A model generated the notes under the pieces. It searched no databases. It saw only the letters and a list, made by a program, of their open reading frames with translations, and was not told the origin of the DNA. A stretch of DNA of 64,000 nt from Sphaerisporangium corydalis. GTDB taxonomy: Bacteria > Actinomycetota > Actinomycetes > Streptosporangiales > Streptosporangiaceae. Shown piece by piece: positions 11,846-24,730 of the stretch. The stretch is taken from contig NZ_JANZYP010000056.1 of the NCBI RefSeq assembly GCF_025506355.1, positions 1-64,000 of the forward strand. Reading direction: 5' to 3'. Both the position numbers and the translations under genes were made by a program. The first letter of the stretch is position 1, and every line of letters begins with the position of its first letter.

Positions 11846-12106
11846 GTGGCTCTTCAGCGCGATCGGCTCGGCCTCGCGCACATCTCAGAGTCGTTCTCTT
11901 CTCTCGCCGCCCCGCTGAGGGGCAGGCATCCCACCGTTCGGCGCCCGATCCGCCGCAGGCCTTCCGGCCGCGGCCCCGGTCCCCGAGCGGGCCCACCTCG
12001 CCGTCGCTCCGGCAGGCCGTCATGGCCGCCACGGGCGGTCTCCGTGGTGCGCCCGGCGTCCGCCGCCTCAGCCGGCCCGCGGCCCATCCCCAAGGACGGA
12101 CCATGA
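11846..12106 (+). CDS. Possible leaderless upstream ORF of rho
   Basis: An 86-codon frame whose GTG sits 5 nt after the -10 box TATCTT and whose TGA overlaps the rho start codon (ATGA at 12103-12106). This geometry suggests a leaderless mRNA beginning with a leader peptide coupled to rho. Against it, the peptide is Arg/Pro-rich and low in complexity and has no known domain; the same DNA could simply be a C-rich untranslated rho leader. The region 11,900-12,100 is about 260 bp that would otherwise be unexplained. Confidence 0.3.
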   Translation: MALQRDRLGLAHISESFSSLAAPLRGRHPTVRRPIRRRPSGRGPGPRAGPPRRRSGRPSWPPRAVSVVRPASAASAGPRPIPKDGP

Positions 12107-13311
12107 CCGTGACCACCGAAGCACCCCCACGCACCACCAGAACACGCACGACTCCCCGGACACCTCCGGCCGACGTCGTGCCAGAAACCACGACCGCGGC
12201 CAAGCCGCGCAGGCGGACGCCCGCCGCCGACCAGCCCCTGGAGCACGTCTCCGGGTTGCTGGAGGTCCGCGACCGGACCGCCTTCATCAGGACGAACGGC
12301 TACCTGCCCGGCGAGAACGACGTCCGCGTACCGCTGTCCCAGGTCACCGAGTTCGGGCTGCGCCCCGGCGACCTGGTGACGGGCAGCGCCCGCAGGCCGT
12401 ACGAGCGGCTGGCCGCGCTGGTGTCGGTCAACGGCCAGCTCCCCGGGCACGCCAGGCCGCACTTCGCGGCGCTGACGCCCATCCACCCCCGCCGGCGCAT
12501 GGTCCTTGAGACCGACTCCCTCATCACCCGGGTGGTCGACCTGATCGCGCCCATCGGCAGGGGGCAGCGCGGCCTGATCGTCGCGCCTCCCAAGGCCGGG
12601 AAGACCATGGTCCTCAAGGCGATCGCCGACGCCGTGACCCGGAACCACCCGGCCACCCACCTCATGATCGTGCTCGTGGGCGAGCGGCCCGAGGAGGTCA
12701 CCGACTTCCGCGAGTCCGTCCACGGCGAGGTGATCGCCTCGACGTTCGACCGGCCCGAGCGCGACCACACGGCCATCGCCGAGCTGGCCGTCGAGCGGGC
12801 CAAGCGGCTGGTCGAGCGCGGCCAGGACGTCGTGATCCTGCTGGACTCGCTGACCAGGCTCGGCCGCGCGTACAACGTCATCGCGCCGAACGGCGGCAAG
12901 ACCCTCACGGGCGGGATCGACGCGCAGGCCGTCCACCTGCCGAAACGCCTGTTCGGCGCGGCACGCGCGATCAGGGAGGGCGGCTCCCTGACGATCCTCG
13001 CGACCGCGCTCGCCGAGACCGGCTCCCGCATGGACGACTACTTCTTCGAGGAGTTCAAGGGCACCGGCAACATGGAGCTGCGGCTGAGCCGGGCCCTGGC
13101 CGAGCACCGGCTGTACCCGGCGGTCGACGTGAGCGCCTCCAGCACCCGGCGCGAGGAGCTGCTGCTCCCCGACGCCGAGCGGGAGACGATCTGGAAGCTC
13201 CGCAGGGTGCTGTCCGGGCTGGAGCGCGAGCAGGCGCTGACCGTGCTCCTTGACCGCCTCAAGGAGACCCCCTCGAACGCGGCCTTCCTGCGGCAGGTCA
13301 CCGTTTCCTGA
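12103..13311 (+). CDS. rho: Transcription termination factor Rho, short paralogue
   Basis: A 402-residue RNA-dependent ATPase. After a basic Thr/Pro-rich tail (1-45) comes the RNA-binding OB region (about 46-125), then the RecA-like motor with Walker A APPKAGKT (161-168), Walker B VILLD (244-248), the Q-loop region LTGGIDAQAVHLPKR and ETGSRMDDYFFEEFKGTGNMELRLSR. The RNP1 motif, DGFGFLRS in E. coli, here reads DRTAFIRT (57-64), so one stacking Phe is Thr59. The N-terminal helical bundle is absent. Main actinobacterial Rho proteins are usually 600-700 residues with a long insertion; this one is as short as the enterobacterial form and is probably a second copy. I chose ATG 12103, preceded by AAGGACGG. 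It might be a specialised or drug-tolerant Rho (inference). Confidence 0.9.
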   Translation: MTVTTEAPPRTTRTRTTPRTPPADVVPETTTAAKPRRRTPAADQPLEHVSGLLEVRDRTAFIRTNGYLPGENDVRVPLSQVTEFGLRPGDLVTGSARRPYERLAALVSVNGQLPGHARPHFAALTPIHPRRRMVLETDSLITRVVDLIAPIGRGQRGLIVAPPKAGKTMVLKAIADAVTRNHPATHLMIVLVGERPEEVTDFRESVHGEVIASTFDRPERDHTAIAELAVERAKRLVERGQDVVILLDSLTRLGRAYNVIAPNGGKTLTGGIDAQAVHLPKRLFGAARAIREGGSLTILATALAETGSRMDDYFFEEFKGTGNMELRLSRALAEHRLYPAVDVSASSTRREELLLPDAERETIWKLRRVLSGLEREQALTVLLDRLKETPSNAAFLRQVTVS

Positions 13312-14062: not shown

Positions 14063-14677
14063 ATGCCCGACCAGCGCACCGCCTCCGGCGCCCGCACCCG
14101 GCAGCGCATCCTCGCGTCCGCCGAGCACCTCATGCGCACGGTGGGCCTGGCCCACGTCACCACCAAGGAGATCGCCCGCGCCGCCGGGTGCTCAGAGGCG
14201 GCCCTCTACCGGCACTTCTCGGGCAAGGAGGAGCTGTTCGTCGCCGTCCTGCGCGAGCGGCTGCCCTCCCTGGGGCCGTTGATCGCGGAGCTGTCCGAGG
14301 ACCCCGGCGAGCGGACCGCCGAGGAGAGCCTCACCGACATCGCACGCAACGCCACGCTGTTCTACGAGGCGAGCATGCCCATCGGCTCCTCCCTGTTCGC
14401 CGAGCCCGCCCTGCTCGCGCGCCACCGCGAAGGGCTGCGCGCGCTGAACGCCGGCCCGCACAAGCCGCTGGAGTCGCTCGCCGCCTTCCTCGAGGGCCTG
14501 CGCGCCGCCGGCCGCATCCGCGCGGACGCCGACCCCGGACCGGCCGCGGCCCTGCTCCTCGGCGCCTGCTACCAGCGCGCCTTCCTGCGGCACTTCATGG
14601 GCGAAGAGGGCTCCCCCGCGACCCTGGACGACTTCGCCACCGGCCTGACCCGCACCCTCCTGACCGGCATCGCCTGA
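14063..14677 (+). CDS. TetR-family transcriptional repressor
   Basis: A 204-residue regulator. The N-terminal HTH covers about residues 10-60 (TRQRILASAEHLMRTVGLAHVTTKEIARAAGCSEAALYRHFSGKEELF), a textbook TetR DNA-binding domain. The C-terminal two thirds is the all-helical ligand-binding and dimerisation part. I chose the ATG at 14063 with AAGGAAG upstream; a GTG at 14042 is possible but lacks a ribosome site. The palindrome at 13980-13991 between it and the divergent reductase is the likely operator. The ligand is unknown. Confidence 0.92.
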   Translation: MPDQRTASGARTRQRILASAEHLMRTVGLAHVTTKEIARAAGCSEAALYRHFSGKEELFVAVLRERLPSLGPLIAELSEDPGERTAEESLTDIARNATLFYEASMPIGSSLFAEPALLARHREGLRALNAGPHKPLESLAAFLEGLRAAGRIRADADPGPAAALLLGACYQRAFLRHFMGEEGSPATLDDFATGLTRTLLTGIA

Positions 14678-14768
14678 CCCTCGCTGACGCAAATGCGGAG
14701 GACCTTACATACACACGCAGCCGATGCCCGCGACATCCCAAGCGAGCCCAGTGGTCGATCCAGCATGT

Positions 14769-16994
14769 CTAGAGGTCCAGGTGTGACGCTAGCTTCTGGT
14801 ATTCAGCGCTAAGAGCCGCAGTCCGATCCTGCGAAGAGGGATCTATGAGGTTCAGTCGCACAAGAACCTGTCGCTCGCCTTCAGACAGAAGATCCGAGTA
14901 TGTACGACTCTCATAGAAGGATCGGAGAGTCCGAAGGTCCCAAAAACGCAGACGCAGATCCCGGAGGAGATTCCCTGACAAACGCCGGTAGATCGCTGCT
15001 CGTGTTCTGGACCAGTCTTGGCCAGCATCGACAAAAGTATGTAGATCAGCCTGGACGTCTCCGAAATATACCATCTGCACTGAACGGTTCATCCTCGCTT
15101 CATCTGGCTCGTCAAGCAGAGCAAGATATTTCTTCTCAATTTCAGAGTCACCTTGAAGAATGACACTCAATGCTGCTGAGCGTCGAAGCAGGGGATGTCT
15201 CTCGTTCGCAAATGCCCAGGACAGCACAGGGGGGATCTCGTTCAACGGTAGCCTCCCTATATAGTAGAGAATCTGTTCCCTGACCCTGTCCGCCTGATTC
15301 TGGTGATCCGTTGACCGAACGGTGGTCTCATCCACTGATACAAGCAACTCGTACCGTTCAGTCAAGTTTGCCAGGCACCGCTCGACGGAACGGCGGGGGG
15401 CCTCCAGCATCCCACTACGCACGAACACGTTCACGTCGTCGGCAACGGTTGTGTCGAGAGCGACGTCGATCTCCTCCCCACCCTCCAGGAAGGAGGTCAA
15501 AATGTGCTGAGCAATAAGGAACTCGCCGATAGTCTCATGGCGGAACCCTCTGACCAGGGCCTCGCCCGACTCGTCCCGATCGATCGTGAGGAGCTCGGAG
15601 AACGCCGAGTCATCCAGCGAGTCCAGCAAGCTCACCCCCACCACATCGCCGACAATCAACCGCAAAAGACTCACATCGCCCTTATTTCGATAAATCCATC
15701 GGGCAATGAGCAGATGCGCACGTCGGATGACCTTGGCATCGAAACCCCCAGTACCACGATGTCGCTCTTTCTTAATCCACTCATCGTAGAAGAGGCGATA
15801 CAGGCTATAGGGCTCTTTGAGATCGACCACATCCAATCGCGTTCCCACCGCCAGAAGATAGAGAAGCAGTGTGAGCCGCATCGGATTACTGATTAGATTG
15901 CGTGAGCCGGCGAAGTCCTCCATGATGCGCTCGATGACAGCCGAGATCGAGTCGTCGTCGACCCTCTCCGCGTAAAGTCGGGAAAACTCCCGCACATCGC
16001 CGTCATGCCAGCTACATATTTCCACGACCTCTGCCAGTTCCCCCACATGAGGGTGAAGTACAGGGTACTGGCGTTCAAAGAACTCCGTCCGAGAAGCGAC
16101 AATGACAACGGCGTTCAGCTGCAATAGCCTGCTCAGTGATCGCGCCAAATCCACCATGACGCTCTCGCTCGCCTCGTCCAGACCGTCGACCAGGACAGTC
16201 AGGGCGCTCTGCCTGTCAACCTTCGCGATGATCGAATCGATCTTAGTGCCGACTTCTCGAGCCTGGAGGAGGACTCGCTGTTCAGGAAATGCACCACCAC
16301 CCGACAAGAGGATTGTTCGCAGGGCGGTCGTCTTTCCCGATCCCGCATCACCGACTACTGCGATGCATGAGGACCTGAAAGGCTCAGGTTGTGCGAGCCA
16401 GCGCGACAACCTTGTCTCCGGACCTGGATGCTTGTGCAGTTTGATGCTAGGATCCATGATCATTTCTGGCCACACAAAATCAAAACTCGGTCCATTGAAG
16501 TTCAACCAAGGAAGGATCGGAGAGTTGAGCAGCGCGCGCTTCTGACGCTGGGTCTCATCACTGTCGACAGAGCGTCTGATACCAGCCCTTATGGCACTGA
16601 CTATTTCCTGAAGAGATCGCTCATAGTCAGCCGAGCGTCTGAAATCGATGTACTTCAGTCTGTGTAGCACGGAGGGCAGGCCGCAGTCCTGCAGGAGTAG
16701 GGGAAGAAGTACCCTGTCCACGGCCGCCGAGTCACGCCAGACGACCACTTCCTCCTCAAGTCTGCACCACTCGGATTCCAGCCATGAAGGCGTGACCACA
16801 GCTACCAGGTGCCGACAAGAGCCCAGCGCCTCCCGCAGGCCGCGCGGGATGGACTCGCCGGCTCCTATCGCCGCCGGCGCAAAGAAGATCTCAAGCGGCC
16901 TACCGCTCACCCGAAACCGCCGAAGGCGCCTATAGAGGCGATCAGCCCATTCGGCGTCCTGCAGGCTGTGACTCAAGAAGACGTCGTAGGCCAT
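14769..16994 (-). CDS. TIR-NACHT STAND-like NTPase (bacterial NLR-type immune protein)
   Basis: A 741-residue protein in three parts. Residues 1 to about 140 are a TIR domain: YDVFLSHS at the start, then SEWCRLE (74-80), whose Glu80 sits where NAD-cleaving TIR domains have their catalytic Glu. Residues about 205-480 are a NACHT-type NTPase with Walker A GDAGSGKT (215-222), Walker B ending LVDGLDEA (268-275) and an Arg-containing sensor stretch VIVASRTEFF. The rest is helical and probably senses or oligomerises. Proteins of this kind are immune sensors in which NTP-driven assembly activates TIR NADase and stops growth on phage infection. It is the last gene of the operon, 3 nt after the HD gene, with no ribosome site of its own, implying coupled translation. 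The trigger is unknown. Confidence 0.88.
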   Translation of the reverse strand: MAYDVFLSHSLQDAEWADRLYRRLRRFRVSGRPLEIFFAPAAIGAGESIPRGLREALGSCRHLVAVVTPSWLESEWCRLEEEVVVWRDSAAVDRVLLPLLLQDCGLPSVLHRLKYIDFRRSADYERSLQEIVSAIRAGIRRSVDSDETQRQKRALLNSPILPWLNFNGPSFDFVWPEMIMDPSIKLHKHPGPETRLSRWLAQPEPFRSSCIAVVGDAGSGKTTALRTILLSGGGAFPEQRVLLQAREVGTKIDSIIAKVDRQSALTVLVDGLDEASESVMVDLARSLSRLLQLNAVVIVASRTEFFERQYPVLHPHVGELAEVVEICSWHDGDVREFSRLYAERVDDDSISAVIERIMEDFAGSRNLISNPMRLTLLLYLLAVGTRLDVVDLKEPYSLYRLFYDEWIKKERHRGTGGFDAKVIRRAHLLIARWIYRNKGDVSLLRLIVGDVVGVSLLDSLDDSAFSELLTIDRDESGEALVRGFRHETIGEFLIAQHILTSFLEGGEEIDVALDTTVADDVNVFVRSGMLEAPRRSVERCLANLTERYELLVSVDETTVRSTDHQNQADRVREQILYYIGRLPLNEIPPVLSWAFANERHPLLRRSAALSVILQGDSEIEKKYLALLDEPDEARMNRSVQMVYFGDVQADLHTFVDAGQDWSRTRAAIYRRLSGNLLRDLRLRFWDLRTLRSFYESRTYSDLLSEGERQVLVRLNLIDPSSQDRTAALSAEYQKLASHLDL

Positions 16995-16997
16995 ATT

Positions 16998-17612
16998 TCA
17001 TTCTTTCGCTGGCGGCTGGTTCTCCCGCCGATATCCCAGTTCCCAGTAGGGGCGGTCACCGAGGTACTCACCGAGCCTCCTGGCGACAACCTCAGCCACC
17101 AGGGCAGCCGGGACGATCCCCAGTGCGTCGTAACGCGCGACGTCTCTTCGGTATTCGGAGATATCGCCCTGATTCTCCTTGGCGTAGTACATTGCCGCTG
17201 CTATGATCTGAAGTTCCTCCGCAGCCTCGACAAGCCTCGCTTCAAGCGTCTTGAGTTCGTGCAACTCGTCGAGCAACGGCAGAACTTCACCAGCAAGATC
17301 GCCAAGAATGTCGACGGCCGCTTCGCGTTCCGCCTTACGCTTGAACTCTCTTACATACGGACTGGATCGGCGGGGTAGATCAGTCAATCTCACCTCTCCG
17401 ACCTCATGAAACAAAGCCATTGTGAGAACTTTTCCCAGTTCGACCGGCTCGTCTATCTGTTGAGCAAGTATGTAGGCGATGATGGCAGTCTCAAAACAGT
17501 GGTCAGATACCGATTCCGGGTTCGCGACCCCTGCCAATACCCAGCCGATCCGTGGTAGCTTCGTCAATGCATGCAACTCGGCCATGCTATCGAGAGTCCG
17601 TTCTGCGTCCAT
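16998..17612 (-). CDS. HD-domain phosphohydrolase, YfbR/HD_3-like with HE variant
   Basis: A 204-residue soluble helical protein. RIGWVLAGVANPESVSDHCFETA (His38) and MALFHEVGEVRLTDLP match HD_3/YfbR-type hydrolases, which remove phosphate from (deoxy)nucleotides. Two changes stand out: the usual His-Asp pair is His69-Glu70, and the later metal Asp (the ADKL position) is Glu132 in AAEELQ. Both keep a carboxylate, so metal binding could survive with altered activity. The ATG overlaps the upstream radical SAM stop by one base (TGATG), and the TIR-NACHT ATG follows its stop after 3 nt. Within this operon it may process nucleotides or a signal; that is inference. Confidence 0.8.
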   Translation of the reverse strand: MDAERTLDSMAELHALTKLPRIGWVLAGVANPESVSDHCFETAIIAYILAQQIDEPVELGKVLTMALFHEVGEVRLTDLPRRSSPYVREFKRKAEREAAVDILGDLAGEVLPLLDELHELKTLEARLVEAAEELQIIAAAMYYAKENQGDISEYRRDVARYDALGIVPAALVAEVVARRLGEYLGDRPYWELGYRRENQPPAKE

Positions 17613-19327
17613 CAGGTCAATATTCCTCTCGCCGGAGATCGGGCGCTAGTCAGCAGATCGACATCGTGAGCTGCAATAGACGCCTGTCTTACCACCGCGT
17701 GGTCCGCAAGTCCTGATCTTAGGGTGCTGATCGCGTATTGCACGCATGAGGCTAGCGCGCCAGCGGCTTCAGAGAGGCTCGTTCGCAATTCTGACTCAGG
17801 GTCCTGCCCCTGCTCAAGACAGCCGATAGCGGACAACATGGCATCACATAGGTCATTACGAAAATCCACTATGGCCTGACGGAGGGGGTGCACTGCGGTG
17901 CCGAAAATTCCCGTTGATCCCGAACGAGACAAGTTCTTCGCAGGATAATACAGCGGATGCAGACGCTGGTTCCAGCTTTCGATCATTCTGAAGAACCGAT
18001 TGACGTCTGCTTCTGCGAACACATATCTGTGGGAAAGCGTGTCCGGGTCCATGGTCGATTCGTGCAGTGTCACACCGAACCTCTGCTCGTACTTCTCCAG
18101 CATGTTCAAGTAATGCGAGGACGTCTGCAGCCTGAGGCTGCTACTCAAGCCTGATGCCATGGCGGCCAAACCATGAGCTCGCATAAAACGAAGACTTTCC
18201 TCAATCTCACTTAAGCTACATAACGGATCGAAAAGGATGACACCGATCTCCACCCGGATGCCCAGCGCTAGGAGTCGTTCGACCGCCATGGCGGCCTCAT
18301 CGCGTGTGTGCCCTTTCGCATAACGCTTAAGCTGACCCGGGGAACATGATTCTATTCCGAGGAACACTTTCTGGAGTCCTAGGTCGGCGAGATGTTCAAC
18401 GACCCTCGCTCGGCGACAATCCTCTGCCGAGGAATCTCTTCGCGAGTAAACAGAATGAATTGTAAGGCTTGCATCCATCTTAGGAAAGGCGATTTTCCTC
18501 TCCGCAAGCTCCTCAACGAAACGTTCCGCATCGGCGAGCGAACCTCCTAGGAAGTCCTCATCCGCGATCGTCACATCGTGAACCCCAAGCTCGGTGAGCC
18601 CGTTCAGGTCGTTCGCCACTAATTCTGCTGACTTGCGCCGGTACTCCTGCGCTCGCCCTGCCACATCATTAAGGCCCCGAAGGCAGAACGTACAAGCCGC
18701 CCATGAGCAGCCTCGGCTTGTCTCCGTAAAGATTTGACCACCGTTCTTATAGATGCCCCGGACATGTCCACGGAACGGAGGTATTCCTGCGCGCAGGTCG
18801 ACGAGCAGACGGCGAGTCCTTACTCTTTTACCATCAGGCCCGATGTAGTGGATGTTGGGCACCGTCTCATAGGAGCGCCGAAGCCTCCACATCTCGACCA
18901 ACTGAGGGAGTGCCTCATCCGCCTCACCTACGATGAGGACCGCGTCGGGAGCCACGTCCGCCAGAAGTCGGTCACCGAGATACGTCGCGATAGGCCCACC
19001 AAAGGCGACAAGCGGATCGGGGCCATCAAGAGCGGACCGCAGAGCGTGATACTGCCGTTCAATGGTGCTAAACGTCCCATAGGCCAGTCCGATGGCCAAC
19101 ACGTTGGCTCGGACGGCACGTATCAGATCAACCGCTCGCCCGCAGTCCTCCTCACCCCACTCCACCATGTCCAGCACATGCATGCTGAATAAACTGCCTG
19201 GCATGGAGGCCAGCAGGCCCCCTGCCGCTACAGAGAGCCCGTGGCTTTCGCCTATTGCCGGATAATTCTTGGAATAGAGGCCTAAAAGAACCGCCCTGAC
19301 TTCACCTGGCTGATCCGCCTCGATCAT
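17612..19327 (-). CDS. B12-binding-type radical SAM enzyme
   Basis: A 571-residue protein. The N-terminal 150 residues have the Rossmann-like layout of B12-binding radical SAM enzymes (VLAIGLAYG, VAFGGPIAT, VLIVGEADEALPQLVE). The DXHXXG motif is absent, as is common in this class. The radical SAM barrel carries the iron-sulphur motif C207-X4-C212-X2-C215, one residue longer than the usual CX3CX2C, followed by DVTIADEDFLG and GLQKVFLGIESCSPGQLKRYAKGHT. The last 130 residues are a helical extension I cannot assign. Enzymes of this class methylate or rearrange unactivated carbons. It is the first gene of the island operon and overlaps the HD gene by 1 nt. The ribosome site is weak. The substrate is unknown; it is not a viperin homologue. 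Confidence 0.85.
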   Translation of the reverse strand: MIEADQPGEVRAVLLGLYSKNYPAIGESHGLSVAAGGLLASMPGSLFSMHVLDMVEWGEEDCGRAVDLIRAVRANVLAIGLAYGTFSTIERQYHALRSALDGPDPLVAFGGPIATYLGDRLLADVAPDAVLIVGEADEALPQLVEMWRLRRSYETVPNIHYIGPDGKRVRTRRLLVDLRAGIPPFRGHVRGIYKNGGQIFTETSRGCSWAACTFCLRGLNDVAGRAQEYRRKSAELVANDLNGLTELGVHDVTIADEDFLGGSLADAERFVEELAERKIAFPKMDASLTIHSVYSRRDSSAEDCRRARVVEHLADLGLQKVFLGIESCSPGQLKRYAKGHTRDEAAMAVERLLALGIRVEIGVILFDPLCSLSEIEESLRFMRAHGLAAMASGLSSSLRLQTSSHYLNMLEKYEQRFGVTLHESTMDPDTLSHRYVFAEADVNRFFRMIESWNQRLHPLYYPAKNLSRSGSTGIFGTAVHPLRQAIVDFRNDLCDAMLSAIGCLEQGQDPESELRTSLSEAAGALASCVQYAISTLRSGLADHAVVRQASIAAHDVDLLTSARSPARGILT

Positions 19328-19358
19328 GTTCGCCGTTTCTTTGCTCTAAATGAACCTA

Positions 19359-19389
19359 CACTGAGACACTTAGTGCACTTGCGACACTT
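19359..19389. promoter_or_regulatory. Four CACT repeats in the island operon promoter
   Basis: CACT(T) occurs at 19359, 19367, 19376 and 19385, spaced 8-9 bp, just upstream of the radical SAM start. CACTTAGTG (19367-19375) is also a small palindrome. On the minus strand TAGGTT near 19350-19357 could be the -10 box. Regular half-site spacing suggests binding of a cooperative regulator. Confidence 0.4.
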
Positions 19390-19878
19390 CGATGAGTTGG
19401 CCATCCGTCCCGCGAAACCCTGACAAGCAGTAATTTACACAGAGCATGGCCCGGCCACAATGCCGGCCAGGGGTTCTAGCGTAAGAAGCTGCAGATGTTC
19501 GGTCCGCTTATCTCTTGTCGATCGTCGCGCCGGGCGCAAAGGTGCCGGAACCCTTGATCCTCGGAGATTGCCAATGAGGAGATTCCTGAGCCAATGGGCC
19601 ATCCATGGTCATTTGGCCGAAAGTCGACGTTTTGTGCCATTAATCATTTATGTCCGTCCTGGTCCTCTATGGGCTGTCGGGTAAACGTAGTTTGAGTCAT
19701 CCCATACTTGGCAAGCGGAGTCGACCACTGCACTCTGCGAAGATCGGAGTGGATCCGAACCTTAGGAAGGGCACTCCATATCCGTCGCGATCGGCTTGCT
19801 TCCCCTCACCGCCGTAAAGGGTGCAGAGGTTCTTCAAGAGAAATTTCAAAGGCTGCAACGATCATTACCGAGGCCCAC
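19390..19878. other. AT-richer noncoding right end of the island
   Basis: About 490 bp without a convincing gene. A 74-codon frame at 19460-19684 lacks a ribosome site and a recognisable sequence. A small CCGGC/GCCGG hairpin lies at 19451-19466. CCAATGGGCCAT (19591-19602) and ATGGTCATTTGG (19605-19616) form an imperfect inverted repeat. No att-like repeat of the left edge was found. Confidence 0.45.
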
Positions 19879-21108
19879 TCAGACCCCGGTCATGGGCAGA
19901 TTCTTGTCGTCGTAATGCCTCAGGCGTGGGGCGGGGCGGTGGGTGAGGCGGAGGAGGGGGGCTGCGGCGACGGCGAGGCCCGCGAGGCGGCTGAGGCGGT
20001 TGCGGGTGCGGATGCGGCGCGCCGTGGCGGGGACGAGGCGGCTGTCGCCCTCCTTGACCCGCGCCTGGCCCTTGGCCACGACGGCGCGGTGCTCGGCCTC
20101 GTAGCGGGCGAACGCGCGGTGGTGGTCTCCCCCGGCGGCGTGCAGCTCGCCCGCGAGGACGTAGGCCCCCACCATCGCCAGCGTCGTGCCCTGGCCGGAC
20201 AGCAGGGCCGGGCAGTGGGCGGCGTCGCCCGCCAGCGCGACCCGGCCGCGCGACCAGGGCGTCATCCGGATCTGGCTGACCGAGTCGAAGTAGAAGTCGG
20301 GGGCCGCCGTCACCGCCGCGAGCAGCTCGGGCACCTGCCACCCGGAGACGGCGAAGGCCTCGGCGAGCAGCCGCCGCTGCCGGTCGCCGTCCCGCTCGCC
20401 GGTCACCGGGCCCGGCGGGCGGAACACGAAGATCCCGGTGGCCCGGTCGAGATAGCTGTAGATCCCGGCCATCCGCCCCGGCTCGTTGTACAGCACGACC
20501 TGGTCGTCCTCGCCGTACCGCCCAGTCACCAGCTCCTTCGGCACGTCGGCGGCGGCGACGTAGGAGCCGAGGTGGTGGATGAACCGGGACTCCTCGCCGA
20601 AGGCCAGCCTGCGGACGATCGAGTGCAGGCCGTCGGCGCCGATCACCAGGTCGAACCGCCTGGCGGCCCCGCGCTCGAAGGAGACCGTGACGCCGTCGTC
20701 GTCCTGGTCGAGGGTCTTGATCGAGTCGTCGTAGACATACTCGACGTCGCCCCAAGTGGCTTCGTGGAGGATCCGGACCAGGTCGCCCCGGGGAAGCTCG
20801 ATGTCGCCCGTGGGCAGGGCCTCGCGCAGCGCACGCGCGTCGAAGCCGCCCGACCTGCGGCCCTCGCGGTCGACGAAGGTCAGCGCCGCCATCTCCACGG
20901 ACGCGCGCCTGAGCTCGGGCAGGACGCCCATGCGGCCGGCCACGTCCACGCCCTGGCCCCGGACGTCGATCGGGTACCCGCCCTCGCGCGGCGCCTTGGC
21001 CCGTTCGACGACCACGGGCCGGAACCCGTATCGGGCCAGCCAGTAGGCCAGCACGGGACCGGTCACGCTGGCCCCGGAGATCAGCACGTCGCGGTTCCGC
21101 GTCGTCAT
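19879..21108 (-). CDS. FAD-dependent monooxygenase (aromatic hydroxylase/TetX-like)
   Basis: A 409-residue group A flavoprotein hydroxylase. The FAD-binding start is VLISGASVTGPVLAYWLARYG, where the usual GXGXXG reads GASVTG; DLVIGADGLHSIVR is the DG motif, and GRVALAGDAAHCPALLSGQGT is the GD motif that closes the flavin site. The enzyme would use NAD(P)H and O2 to hydroxylate an aromatic or polyketide compound; TetX-like drug inactivation is another option. GGGGG lies upstream of the ATG. It is divergent from a TetR-type gene with two CTGACC-N3-GGTCAG operators between them, so it is probably induced by a small molecule that also affects that regulator. Confidence 0.9.
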   Translation of the reverse strand: MTTRNRDVLISGASVTGPVLAYWLARYGFRPVVVERAKAPREGGYPIDVRGQGVDVAGRMGVLPELRRASVEMAALTFVDREGRRSGGFDARALREALPTGDIELPRGDLVRILHEATWGDVEYVYDDSIKTLDQDDDGVTVSFERGAARRFDLVIGADGLHSIVRRLAFGEESRFIHHLGSYVAAADVPKELVTGRYGEDDQVVLYNEPGRMAGIYSYLDRATGIFVFRPPGPVTGERDGDRQRRLLAEAFAVSGWQVPELLAAVTAAPDFYFDSVSQIRMTPWSRGRVALAGDAAHCPALLSGQGTTLAMVGAYVLAGELHAAGGDHHRAFARYEAEHRAVVAKGQARVKEGDSRLVPATARRIRTRNRLSRLAGLAVAAAPLLRLTHRPAPRLRHYDDKNLPMTGV

Positions 21109-22077: not shown

Positions 22078-22110
22078 TGAGACGCTTTATGAGACGCTAT
22101 TTTGAGACGG
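22078..22110. repeat. Three short TGAGACG repeats between convergent genes
   Basis: TGAGACG occurs at 22078, 22090 and 22103, spaced 12-13 bp and separated by T-rich stretches. The third overlaps the end of the carotenoid oxygenase gene. Its role is unclear; the local T-runs could help termination. Confidence 0.4.
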
Positions 22111-23425
22111 TGACCGACGGGTCGGGGATCCACGAGCCGTGGAACCCGGCGGGGACGCGGCGCGGGAGCCGCACCGAGGCGACGAAGTCCAGCCCGCCGG
22201 CGTCCAGCACGAGCAGTTCAGAGCCCTCGCCCGCGTGGTCGCCGACGATGGACAGCAGCCAGCCGTCATCCTCGGACCGCGCCCCGGCGGCGGGCACGAA
22301 GACCGCCTCTCCAGGACGCCCGCCGACGTCACAGAAGCGGGAGGCCCCGGTCTCGGTGTCGTACTTCACCACCGCGCCCTCGGTCACCGCGTACAGGTAG
22401 GTGCTGGACCGGCCGAGGCGGTCCTCGTTGAACGTGGGGAACTCCACGTCGCGGTCGTCGGCCTGCTCCTCCTTCACCATCCCGCTCGCGGGGTCGAGCA
22501 CCCAGCGGTGCAGCGTGGCGCCGCCCGCCGCGTCCGGCGGCCCGGCGACGCCGCCGAGGCGGGGCCAGAGCTCGGCGAAGGAGTCACGGGAGTAGCGGAC
22601 CGCGTCCAGCACGATCCGGCCCGAGGCGTCCTCGCGGGCGTTGCCGACGTGGAACACGTAACAGGGGTCGATGTCGAACCAGGTCACCTTCCCCGCCCGG
22701 TCCATCACGCCGAGCCTGGCGCCGTAGGAGTCGTCCCACCGGAAGGCCATGCCGCCGGAGCCGGCGAGGTCCATGTCGAAGACGACCGGCAGGTCCAGCC
22801 ACACGACGTGGTTCTCGGTGATCGCGAAGTCGTGGACCATCGTCGGGCCGGGGACCTCCACCGCCCGGCTCTCCACCAGCTCCCCCTGGGCGGACAGGCG
22901 GTGGTAGGTCAGGTAGGGCGCGGTGAAGCCGTACCCGAAGAAGTGCAGTTCACCGGTGACCGGGTCCTGCTTCGGGTGCGCCGTCATGCCGGTGGTCAGC
23001 CGGCCGCCGAAGTCGACCGGCCCGACGGTCTCCAGCTCGGGCGTCAGCTCGTACGGCAGGCCGACCTCGACCAGGGCGAGGATCCTGTCGGCGTGGTGGA
23101 TCACGTGGGTGTTGGCGGAGACGGCCGTCCGGTCGAAGCCGCCGGGGCCGACGAACTTGGCGCCCTCGGTGAAGGCGCGCGTGCGCACCCACCGGTTGCG
23201 GTACCAGTCGGCGCGGCCGTCGCGGAGCCGGATGCCGTGGACCATGCCGGGGCCCGCGAACCAGTGGCCGGGGTCCTGGCCGGGGAGCGGGTTGGGGCCG
23301 TTGCGGAAGTAGCGGCCGGTGAGCTCGGCGGGCAGGGTGCCGGTGACCGGCAGGCCGACGGCGCCGATCTCGTCGGGGACGGGGGCGAGGTGACCGGACA
23401 GGTAGGTGGGGCGGGCGGTGTCCAT
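22097..23425 (-). CDS. Carotenoid cleavage oxygenase (RPE65/CCD family)
   Basis: A 442-residue beta-propeller enzyme with all four iron-binding histidines: His150 (TGMTAHPK), His198 (MVHDFAITENH), His259 (YVFHVGNA) and His429 (GFHGSW). FRNGPNP near residue 41 and the second-shell glutamates are also present. The family splits a carotenoid or stilbene double bond with O2, giving two carbonyl products such as retinal or apocarotenals. I chose the ATG at 23425 with CAGGAG upstream. The gene follows a membrane protein gene on the same strand after 89 nt, behind a promoter shared with a divergent PadR regulator. No carotenoid synthesis gene is nearby, so the substrate is open. Confidence 0.93.
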   Translation of the reverse strand: MDTARPTYLSGHLAPVPDEIGAVGLPVTGTLPAELTGRYFRNGPNPLPGQDPGHWFAGPGMVHGIRLRDGRADWYRNRWVRTRAFTEGAKFVGPGGFDRTAVSANTHVIHHADRILALVEVGLPYELTPELETVGPVDFGGRLTTGMTAHPKQDPVTGELHFFGYGFTAPYLTYHRLSAQGELVESRAVEVPGPTMVHDFAITENHVVWLDLPVVFDMDLAGSGGMAFRWDDSYGARLGVMDRAGKVTWFDIDPCYVFHVGNAREDASGRIVLDAVRYSRDSFAELWPRLGGVAGPPDAAGGATLHRWVLDPASGMVKEEQADDRDVEFPTFNEDRLGRSSTYLYAVTEGAVVKYDTETGASRFCDVGGRPGEAVFVPAAGARSEDDGWLLSIVGDHAGEGSELLVLDAGGLDFVASVRLPRRVPAGFHGSWIPDPSVTVSK

Positions 23426-23514
23426 GCTGGTCTCCTGAGAACTCTGCGGGACGTGCGGGTGCTTGCGCGTACGGCGGGCGGCGTTTGCGGGCGCGGACGG
23501 GCGCGCGGCCGGAG

Positions 23515-24069
23515 TCAGGCGTAGCGGGCGGCGACGATCTTGGGGTACCGGGCGGTGAAGACGGCGGGCGCCGCGAAGCCGATGACCTTGACGGCGATCA
23601 CGGCGGCGGTGGCGTGCGGTGCGCTGTACAGCAGCACGGCCAGCGCGACGCCGGCGACGACGAAGGCGGTGCCCCACACCGAGGTGATGACCGCGTTGAT
23701 CCGGTAGAACACCGGCGTCTCCCACACCTCCCGGGGCGCCATGCTCCGCGCGATGCCGAGGGTGAACGGCTTGCGGATGGCCAGGGAGCCCCAGGCGGTG
23801 AGCGCGAGCCAGCCGTCGACCAGGGCGGGTCCGTACCGCATGAACGAGGCGCCGGGGGCGGCCAGGGAGATCACGATGGCCAGGGTGAGGAACACCACCG
23901 CGCTGCATTCGATCACCATCTGATCCCACTGTTTGCCCGACCGGCGATCCAGGACGACGAGCACGAGCGCTATCGCGAGGCCGACCATGGCGCCGTACCT
24001 CCAGTTGTCGCTGGTCGCGAGGACGGCGTAGGCGATCCAGGGGAGGAAGCCGAGGAGGCTGCGGATCAT
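23515..24069 (-). CDS. Multi-pass membrane protein
   Basis: A 184-residue protein with about five or six hydrophobic helices (LLGFLPWIAYAVLA, MVGLAIALVLVVL, SAVVFLTLAIVISLAA, TSVWGTAFVVAGVALAVLLY, AAVIAVKVIGFAA). I chose the ATG at 24069 because AAGGAG lies 6 nt upstream; an ATG at 24090 is in frame but has no such site. It heads the unit with the carotenoid oxygenase, and its promoter faces a PadR gene across a large inverted repeat. I recognise no family. A role in handling the oxygenase's lipophilic substrate or product is only a guess. Confidence 0.75.
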   Translation of the reverse strand: MIRSLLGFLPWIAYAVLATSDNWRYGAMVGLAIALVLVVLDRRSGKQWDQMVIECSAVVFLTLAIVISLAAPGASFMRYGPALVDGWLALTAWGSLAIRKPFTLGIARSMAPREVWETPVFYRINAVITSVWGTAFVVAGVALAVLLYSAPHATAAVIAVKVIGFAAPAVFTARYPKIVAARYA

Positions 24070-24086
24070 GGGGGGCTCCTTGATTG

Positions 24087-24149
24087 ACATTCCACTTGTG
24101 ACATGTCGAACCTAGAACGTCCGCTGGCGACCTGTCAACAGTGGAATGT
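24087..24149. promoter_or_regulatory. PadR operator pair (22-bp inverted copies)
   Basis: 24087-24108 and the reverse complement of 24128-24149 agree at 19 of 22 positions, sharing ACATTCCACT, TGACA and GTCG. The two copies face each other across the PadR/membrane-protein divergent promoter, with the right copy ending 11 bp before the PadR ATG. This is strong positional evidence for PadR binding and autoregulation. Confidence 0.8.
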
Positions 24150-24160
24150 AGGATCCGGCC

Positions 24161-24730
24161 ATGAGCCTTCGACACGCCCTGCTCGGCCTGCTCGCCCAGG
24201 GACCCGCCAGCGGATACGACCTGATGAAGATCTTCGACATCTCCCTGGCGAACGTCTGGCCGGCCACGCAGAGCCAGGTCTACGGCGAGCTGTCCCGGCT
24301 CGCCGACGCCGGCCTGGTCAAGGTGGCGGCCGAGGGCCCGCGCGGCCGCAAGGAGTACGCCATCGACGACACCGGGCTGGCCGAACTGCGCCACTGGCTG
24401 ACGGAGGTCGAGCCCACCCACGTCCACCGCAGCGACATGCTGCTTCGCGTCTTCTTCCTCGGGCGGCTCGACCGGGAGCAGGCCGCCGGCTACCTGCGGC
24501 GGCAGGCGGAGTTCGCGGCCGGCCGGCACGAGAGCCTGGCGGGTCTGGTGGACATCGTGTCCGAGGGGGAGGACGACCTCTCGGTCTACGGCAGGCTCGC
24601 CCTGGAGTGGGGGCTGCGGTTCACCAACCTGCATCGCGAGTGGGCCGAGTGGGCCACGGCCGAGATCGAGAAGTGGCCCTCGCCCCGCGACCCGCTCACC
24701 GGGGAGGCCCCTCGGGAGACCGGCGGCTGA
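24161..24730 (+). CDS. PadR-family transcriptional regulator
   Basis: A 189-residue regulator. The N-terminal winged helix begins MSLRHALLGLLAQGPASGYDLMKIFD and includes SQVYGELSRLADAGLVK and GRKEYAIDDTGLAEL, the standard PadR layout. A C-terminal helical dimerisation domain (Vir_C-like) follows, with long coiled helices. It is divergent from the membrane protein/carotenoid oxygenase unit, and two inverted 22-bp copies fill the space between. PadR proteins usually repress a neighbouring unit until a small, often aromatic or hydrophobic, ligand binds. Confidence 0.92.
   Translation: MSLRHALLGLLAQGPASGYDLMKIFDISLANVWPATQSQVYGELSRLADAGLVKVAAEGPRGRKEYAIDDTGLAELRHWLTEVEPTHVHRSDMLLRVFFLGRLDREQAAGYLRRQAEFAAGRHESLAGLVDIVSEGEDDLSVYGRLALEWGLRFTNLHREWAEWATAEIEKWPSPRDPLTGEAPRETGG

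Follow-up and report, generated by a model that had tools for sequence, protein, structure and literature searches.

A candidate anti-phage operon of Sphaerisporangium corydalis combining an OxsB-like radical SAM enzyme, an HD-domain hydrolase relative and a TIR-NACHT protein

A low-GC insert in Sphaerisporangium corydalis, contig NZ_JANZYP010000056.1, positions 1 to 64,000 (the whole stretch of 64,000 nucleotides analysed here, termed the window), carries three genes for a radical S-adenosylmethionine (SAM) enzyme, an HD-domain hydrolase relative and a TIR-NACHT protein, hereafter the trio. Sequence and fold comparisons establish that an OxsB-like radical SAM enzyme, a relative of HD nucleotidases whose metal ligands are changed and a TIR-NLR protein are inherited together. 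Our tentative reading, to which we give somewhat less than an even chance, is that the trio is a mobile anti-phage operon acting via an unusual nucleotide, against which an HD copy found in a phage would serve as counter-defence. The link to OxsB and OxsA, the enzyme pair of oxetanocin A, a variant with a NUDIX gene and the phage-borne HD are additions to the earlier, sequence-only reading of this DNA, which had proposed a new immune system. The features are as follows.

14690..19870, no strand: low-GC insert, horizontally acquired, bounded by GC steps
19328..19865, minus strand: low-GC leader upstream of the operon, with neither a picked gene nor an Rfam match
17612..19327, minus strand: B12-type radical SAM enzyme, OxsB-like, 571 aa (Radical_SAM; OxsB by profile and Foldseek)
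18683..18709, minus strand: CX4CX2C cluster motif, C207-C215 (sequence, aligned rows)
16998..17612, minus strand: relative of HD-domain nucleotide phosphohydrolases, HE/E variant, 204 aa (HD_3, YfbR-like)
17403..17408, minus strand: H69-E70 (HE replacing HD), with a partner D-to-E change at residue 132
14769..16994, minus strand: TIR-NACHT (NLR-like) protein, 741 aa (TIR_2, motifs)
16755..16757, minus strand: Glu80 in the TIR motif WxxxE, the putative NADase residue (alignments)
16329..16352, minus strand: NACHT Walker A, residues 215-222 (motif)

The insert had been described as a horizontally acquired block of about 5 kb with low GC, and its composition agrees: GC is 0.562 against 0.721 across the rest of the window, with steps at about 14650-14750 and 19850-19900. 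GC at third codon positions (GC3) is 0.60-0.64 in the trio genes and at least 0.81, with one exception at 0.74, in the other picked open reading frames of at least 200 codons, a comparison in which the picking rule is itself biased toward high GC3. The three genes, all on the minus strand and transcribed in the order radical SAM, HD, TIR-NACHT, are joined as previously noted, by the 1-nt overlap TGATG at the first junction and by a 3-nt gap at the second. Regarding a riboswitch, Rfam gave no match in the region 13.5-20.5 kb (E up to 0.1). A 29-nt inverted repeat of 72% identity (14744-14772 and 19707-19735), considered as a pair of terminal repeats, was not used because its exact core is 10 nt long and chance alone should produce cores of this length in 5.6 kb (hand estimate).

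For the TIR-NACHT protein, the earlier proposal of an NLR-like core fitted with a TIR effector was borne out by the TIR_2 family (2.6e-18, 67.1 bits against a cut-off of 28) and by fold comparison; the NACHT part of the name is less secure in Pfam, where the match reaches 18.0 bits, below the curated cut-off of 26.7. W76 and E80 of the WxxxE motif are invariant in the three known trio members and align with AbTIR, where the equivalent of E80 is catalytic. The Walker A (GDAGSGKTT) and Walker B (LVDGLDE) motifs are intact in the window protein. The predicted structure strongly supports an NLR helical-winged core: it is animal-like, resembling NLRC4 and NLRP3, the NLRC4-like core spanning residues 161-678 of 741, and its fold matches include the bacterial proteins Avs4, there in complex with a phage portal, and Avs5. 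On these sequence features, the protein probably destroys the nicotinamide adenine dinucleotide (NAD) of the cell.

The radical SAM enzyme matches Pfam Radical_SAM (5.6e-11), and its best relative of solved structure is OxsB, both by profile against the PDB (1.9e-32) and by Foldseek (6e-20). C207, C212 and C215 form the CX4CX2C motif with the 4Fe-4S cysteine spacing of OxsB (CDYSRCTFC), found in nine of the 26 aligned rows (OxsB, the window protein, L028, L029, L060, L040, L041, L044 and L045; the last seven are loci introduced below). As to the B12-type label assigned earlier, the Pfam B12-binding match (21.4 bits) lies below its curated cut-off of 32.1, and fold comparison moderately supports a putative N-terminal corrinoid-binding Rossmann domain. 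OxsB carries out a contraction of the sugar ring in deoxyadenosine triphosphate (dATP); by analogy, the trio enzyme may contract the ring of dATP or of the monophosphate (dAMP), the substrate being most likely a deoxyadenylate.

The second enzyme belongs to Pfam HD_3 (7.8e-23, 81.6 bits against a cut-off of 22.5) and is YfbR-like (3.3e-11). Its best profile match is 1xx7, an "oxetanocin-like protein" (5.5e-24), followed by 2cqz and AF1432 chains and, further down, by HDDC2 (6.9e-13), YfbR (1.8e-4) and OxsA (0.19). The canonical H...HD...D signature is not kept: the places of the metal ligands hold H38, H69-E70 and E132, so that both Asp residues are replaced by Glu (D69 and D137 in Escherichia coli YfbR, whose H33 and H68 have counterparts). 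Other active-site residues of YfbR, namely R18, W19, E72 and D77, correspond to R21, W24, E73 and D78, with a different spacing between Arg and Trp. In an alignment of 36 rows (34 distinct sequences), Glu occupies both places in all four distinct HDs of the trio and of a phage and in none of 30 other HDs (28 of the 56 family genomes with weaker matches described below, plus L031 and YfbR), which have Asp at both. The change from HD and D to HE and E may affect which metal is bound or make the reaction slower. The motifs listed in the sequence-only reading (CX4CX2C, HE for HD, Glu80, Walker A and B) are therefore all present, and its proposal that the enzyme pair makes and removes a modified nucleotide or cofactor can be narrowed, in that nucleotide chemistry is the likeliest role given the kinship with OxsB and with YfbR and OxsA.

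The trio recurs outside this strain, as a test set in advance had asked. A radical SAM scan of genome contigs returned two relatives, in Paractinoplanes durhamensis (L028) and Micromonospora zingiberis (L029), and each has the complete set of three genes with the order and strand arrangement of the window, at identities to the window of 53/75/50% and 53/78/51%, respectively (radical SAM/HD/TIR-NACHT). The scan used exact peptide patterns, by which trio members may have been missed. The complete trio is present in all three genomes where its HD subfamily was found, a linkage count biased by the fact that two of the three were found via the radical SAM gene. DNA similarity between the window and either relative is confined to the three genes; the flanks differ, and thus the cassette itself moves. 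Trio GC3 is low in the two other hosts as well (0.65-0.72), flanking picks of at least 200 codons having 0.69-0.98, most above 0.8. Together with the composition of the insert, these observations support the earlier claim of horizontal acquisition, the trio being interpreted as a mobile cassette. A recent transfer, considered as an explanation of the high HD identity, was rejected because identity at four-fold degenerate sites is low, 0.20-0.34 over all trio gene pairs and 0.23-0.34 for HD alone. An empty-site comparison was also tried: the FAD gene beside the insert has a homologue in nine of ten other genomes of the genus (E up to 1e-40), and since these homologues are just 36-54% identical, an orthologous empty site could not be demonstrated.

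The trio is rare. Its HD subfamily was found in one of 394 class genomes (E up to 1e-30), the window's own, and in two of 396 phylum genomes (1e-15), the own one and one with a 30% identical relative; in the family of the Paractinoplanes host, 58 of 250 genomes matched at 1e-12, of which only the hosts of the two relatives (G693 and G694) exceed 440 bits, the other 56 reaching at most 69.8 bits. These draws overlap and their counts are not additive. The radical SAM family is broader: counting the window's own genome each time, 25 of 297 order genomes matched at 1e-10, where the next best match by E-value has 31% identity, and seven of 396 phylum genomes at 1e-20. Profiles of the trio HD and TIR-NACHT (E up to 1e-3) detected neither partner in 20 regions around distant radical SAM matches, covering 13 of the 24 non-own order matches and all seven non-own phylum places, some ending at contig ends, while YfbR was detected in L061; the broad radical SAM family is therefore not tied to the trio. 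That these enzymes would usually occur without a TIR-NACHT gene, named earlier as a refuting observation, thus holds for the broad radical SAM family only. Among plasmids, 27 records matched HD, all below 60% identity and none covering 80%, seven matched the radical SAM enzyme and 15 the protein P0005; TIR-NACHT and the NACHT protein of L060 had no plasmid match.

A further HD of this kind resides in a phage. Scanning viral contigs (IMG/VR) with the HD profile returned two records, L062 and L063, which represent one phage seen twice since they have 9,015 bp in common at 99.92%; the phage HD used as a query on viral contigs retrieved the same phage only. HD and radical SAM queries found no match in another set of phage records, which leaves IMG/VR as the sole source of the phage evidence. 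Family matches for tape-measure protein, endolysin, Sak4, exonuclease and helicase accompany the gene, which lies between tRNA-Thr/His and tRNA-Asn/Ile, and an actinobacterial host can be inferred from GC and HD kinship. Near the tRNA cluster the phage also encodes, at L062 9339-10994, a TROVE/VWA (Ro-like) RNA-binding protein. With the Paractinoplanes HD the phage protein shares 83% identity and with that of the window 74%, and it has the double HE/E change of the trio HDs. Its four-fold-site identity to both is 0.30, like that of other gene pairs; selection has therefore preserved the HD protein over a long time in phage and cassette alike. A tblastn comparison, in which L028 served as positive control, found neither a radical SAM nor a TIR-NACHT gene in the full 26,243 bases of one record (L063 and L131) or in 11,115 bases of the second, the records possibly being fragments of the phage genome; query A5 was also empty on the two records, in a run without positive control. 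The simplest reading of these sequences is that the phage HD is a counter-defence. An alternative, compatible with every other reading of the operon since it concerns this point only, is that the phage HD is an enzyme of phage metabolism lowering dATP or dAMP and unrelated to the trio, which captured its HD from phages. A weak match to the phrog_7076 dATP triphosphohydrolase (5.1e-8) favours it, and the direction of transfer cannot be read from one phage; nevertheless, the double D-to-E change common to trio and phage and absent from the 30 other HDs compared argues against it, as does the finding that no nucleotide-modification gene was named among nine other phage proteins scanned, and we consider this alternative unlikely, while giving it real weight.

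The viral-contig scan also revealed a variant, L060 (IMG/VR 2898945296, a prophage-like record of 25.9 kb), with NUDIX, NACHT and radical SAM genes. Its NACHT protein aligns to positions 175-732 of the trio profile (3.5e-70), leaving the TIR part unaligned and without a TIR match, and has at the N-terminus a weak HTH_31 match only (E 0.063, below cut-off). The radical SAM protein is 35% identical and its gene is cut by the contig end. A tyrosine integrase adjoins the NUDIX gene, and the Gabija defence system (GajA 3.6e-212, GajB 4.1e-176) lies about 7 kb further along. In the same scans, query A3 had no match and A6, A5 and P0005 matched the L060 contig only.

L097, 11275-14996: GajA and GajB of Gabija; the 25.9-kb record is that of the L060 variant and bears the integrase

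In the radical SAM tree, the trio enzymes join L060 (99/98) and then L040 (89/89). At L027, a conjugative Sphingobium plasmid (7033-10194), SurE, radical SAM (27%) and NUDIX genes stand in a row, the NUDIX protein having a remote likeness to that of L060 (30% over 59 residues). L040 (G293:C208, 2142-4870) has two coupled radical SAM genes of 347 and 562 aa, the extra one directly upstream and the 562-aa one belonging to the wider clade of the trio; this is possibly an AlsA/AlsB pair like that of albucidin, whose albA and albB are, in the part of the source available, two comparable radical SAM genes (PMC7074753). The neighbours of six further OxsB-side relatives were checked (L041, L044, L045, L046, L049 and L059; one or two nearby genes each, 10 proteins): a second radical SAM-like gene below the Pfam cut-off adjoins the first in L041 and L044, and the other neighbours are a CYTH protein in L041, a PfkB kinase in L044, an adenylating enzyme and a methyltransferase in L046, and an aldo-keto reductase in L049 and L059. 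L045, with one protein without family and a NUDIX gene on the opposite strand one gene away, is the only one of the six with a nucleotide hydrolase nearby. The idea that hydrolases regularly accompany this radical SAM clade was weakened by this check; their company therefore characterizes the trio, L060 and L027 and does not extend to the group as a whole.

In the proposed mechanism, the radical SAM enzyme would act as writer, rearranging a (deoxy)nucleotide (probably a deoxyadenylate, to judge from OxsB) into an unnatural one, and the HD enzyme (or NUDIX) as eraser, removing the phosphates of this product so that the phosphorylated form would stay low in healthy cells. Infection would upset this balance through phage kinases, arrest of the HD enzyme or an altered pool of deoxynucleoside triphosphates (dNTPs), and the phosphorylated form, directly or via the two enzymes, would switch on the TIR-NACHT protein, reader and killer in one, whose assembled TIR domains would hydrolyse NAD+ and stop the infection; an actinophage might evade it by its own copy of the HD eraser. 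We consider doubtful a wider claim, namely that cobalamin radical chemistry underlies a distinct class of immunity in which an OxsB-like enzyme alters the ring of a nucleotide, an eraser of HD or NUDIX type limits the product, a TIR-NLR protein reads it out through NAD+ loss and a phage has acquired the eraser, and that antiviral nucleosides like oxetanocin may have a common descent with these immune enzymes. If true, one operon would tie antiviral nucleoside biosynthesis to nucleotide-signalling phage defence and to the ancestry of TIR/NACHT receptors, and its radical SAM enzyme would yield a new nucleotide that might serve as a starting point for antiviral chemistry. The claim lends itself to direct testing, since the phage HD indicates the step at which the system can be interrupted.

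Several observations weigh against this proposal. The trio radical SAM is not the nearest relative of OxsB in the tree, where OxsB groups with L041, L044, L045, L049 and L059 (99/98) in a clade that excludes it; it lacks the N-terminal domain of OxsB (it aligns from OxsB residue 113 on), and OxsB Asn186, located near the cobalt, is replaced by A82 in the window and by Gln in L028 and L029. In the passages available, this Asn belongs to a water network under the cobalt (PMC13331322). The reaction of the trio may thus differ from that of OxsB, and the radical SAM model is weak (mean predicted local distance difference test score, pLDDT, 61). The D-to-E changes of the HD could impair hydrolysis, and D78, like D77 of YfbR, sits where OxsA has His75, a residue that suits the oxetane according to the same passages (PMC13331322), so that the trio HD is not tuned to an oxetane. 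Across the nine non-trio OxsB-side loci, a hydrolase is adjacent in two (L060 and L027) and a NUDIX is nearby in L045, while in the other six the few neighbours covered by the scan included no hydrolase. Only one phage (two near-identical records) carries the HD, which may serve the phage's own nucleotide pool. Moreover, genome samples comprised at most 396 per search out of 97,973, and PADLOC revealed no defence island among the nine window neighbours scanned.

Two other explanations of the operon seem to us improbable, and about equally so. In the first, the product is a poison and not a signal: the radical SAM and HD enzymes would make a chain-terminating nucleoside, the HD, as one of its makers, holding it in a harmless, unphosphorylated state until phage or host kinases activate it during infection, and the TIR-NACHT protein would be a second arm, triggered separately. 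This agrees with the adjacency and same order of the radical SAM and HD genes in 3/3 loci and with the oxetanocin A pathway, in which, as far as the available text goes, OxsA strips phosphates from phosphorylated oxetanocin A and OxsB reportedly needs OxsA present (PMC13331322). It agrees less well with the lack of OxsA's His75, with a phage that keeps HD without radical SAM, which a maker does not explain unless the HD detoxifies, and with L060, whose NACHT protein accompanies a radical SAM gene with no HD seen, on a record that ends inside that gene. In the second, the TIR-NACHT protein would detect a phage protein in the manner of known bacterial NLRs, and the two enzymes would modify a host cofactor, a tRNA or the TIR product, doing no more than tune or limit NAD+ loss. 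The Avs4 and Avs5 fold matches are in its favour; against it, the NLRC4-like core takes up most of the protein, no large variable or separate C-terminal sensor domain was seen, and conservation between trio members in blocks 601-680 (0.57-0.70) equals or exceeds that of TIR or NACHT. The further argument that this conserved C-terminus proves a small-molecule sensor was weakened because this stretch falls on the helical portion of the NLR core. A non-immune role, as a small metabolite or signalling operon with the NACHT protein as regulator, would suit the L060 protein with its weak HTH_31 and no TIR match, and the examined window neighbours, which are metabolic genes and regulators, and is made very unlikely by the intact WxxxE in 3/3 TIR domains, the mobility, the Gabija system on the variant's record and the phage HD relative.

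Like the oxetanocin A pair, the trio unites B12 radical SAM and HD classes with the CX4CX2C and core motifs; unlike OxsA, its HD has the HE/E metal site and is joined to a TIR-NLR gene. Under the proposed mechanism it would share with Kongming (KomABC) the logic of an unusual nucleotide signal, NAD+ depletion and phage nucleotide-removing enzymes, while consisting of other protein families, with no KomA, KomB or KomC (whose domain make-up is here assumed), with B12 radical SAM chemistry and with a proposed TIR-NLR effector. For Kongming, the passages available describe a signal of deoxyinosine triphosphate (dITP), NAD+ depletion and phage enzymes removing dAMP (PMC12948488). With bacterial NLRs (Avs, bNACHT) and TIR-STAND proteins the trio shares the TIR effector and a NACHT core of NLRC4/NLRP3 type, differing in its tie to two nucleotide enzymes and in the large C-terminal sensor, which was not seen. 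Prokaryotic viperins are radical SAM enzymes that produce an antiviral nucleotide; that of the trio is probably of another kind, B12-type, and no PADLOC 2023 model, presumably including those for viperins, matches it or the trio HD at E up to 0.1. Clover, as far as its source was available, places an HD dNTPase (CloA, with CloB) under nucleotide control in anti-phage defence; unlike the trio, CloA retains the canonical HD motif, and the system has neither radical SAM nor TIR (PMC12265719). Among the literature matches listed, from which subscription papers are mostly absent, no title or abstract described the trio. The passages of PMC7159879 retrieved mention radical SAM once, as part of a vWA-MoxR system, and do not describe the trio; nor do those of PMC10853773, PMC13092281 and PMC12169576.

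Around the insert, PADLOC gave two weak generic matches only among the nine neighbours scanned, of a NUDIX protein to PDC-S07 (2.5e-11) and of a TetR-like regulator to mad1 (1.2e-6). At 12022-13311 the window encodes a 429-aa Rho-family protein, which matches the Rho model and paralog_Rho2 (a short-form paralogue, below its cut-off), and at 22097-24634 a picked frame of 845 aa, whose true start may be further in, matches in its C-terminal half RPE65-type carotenoid-cleaving dioxygenases.

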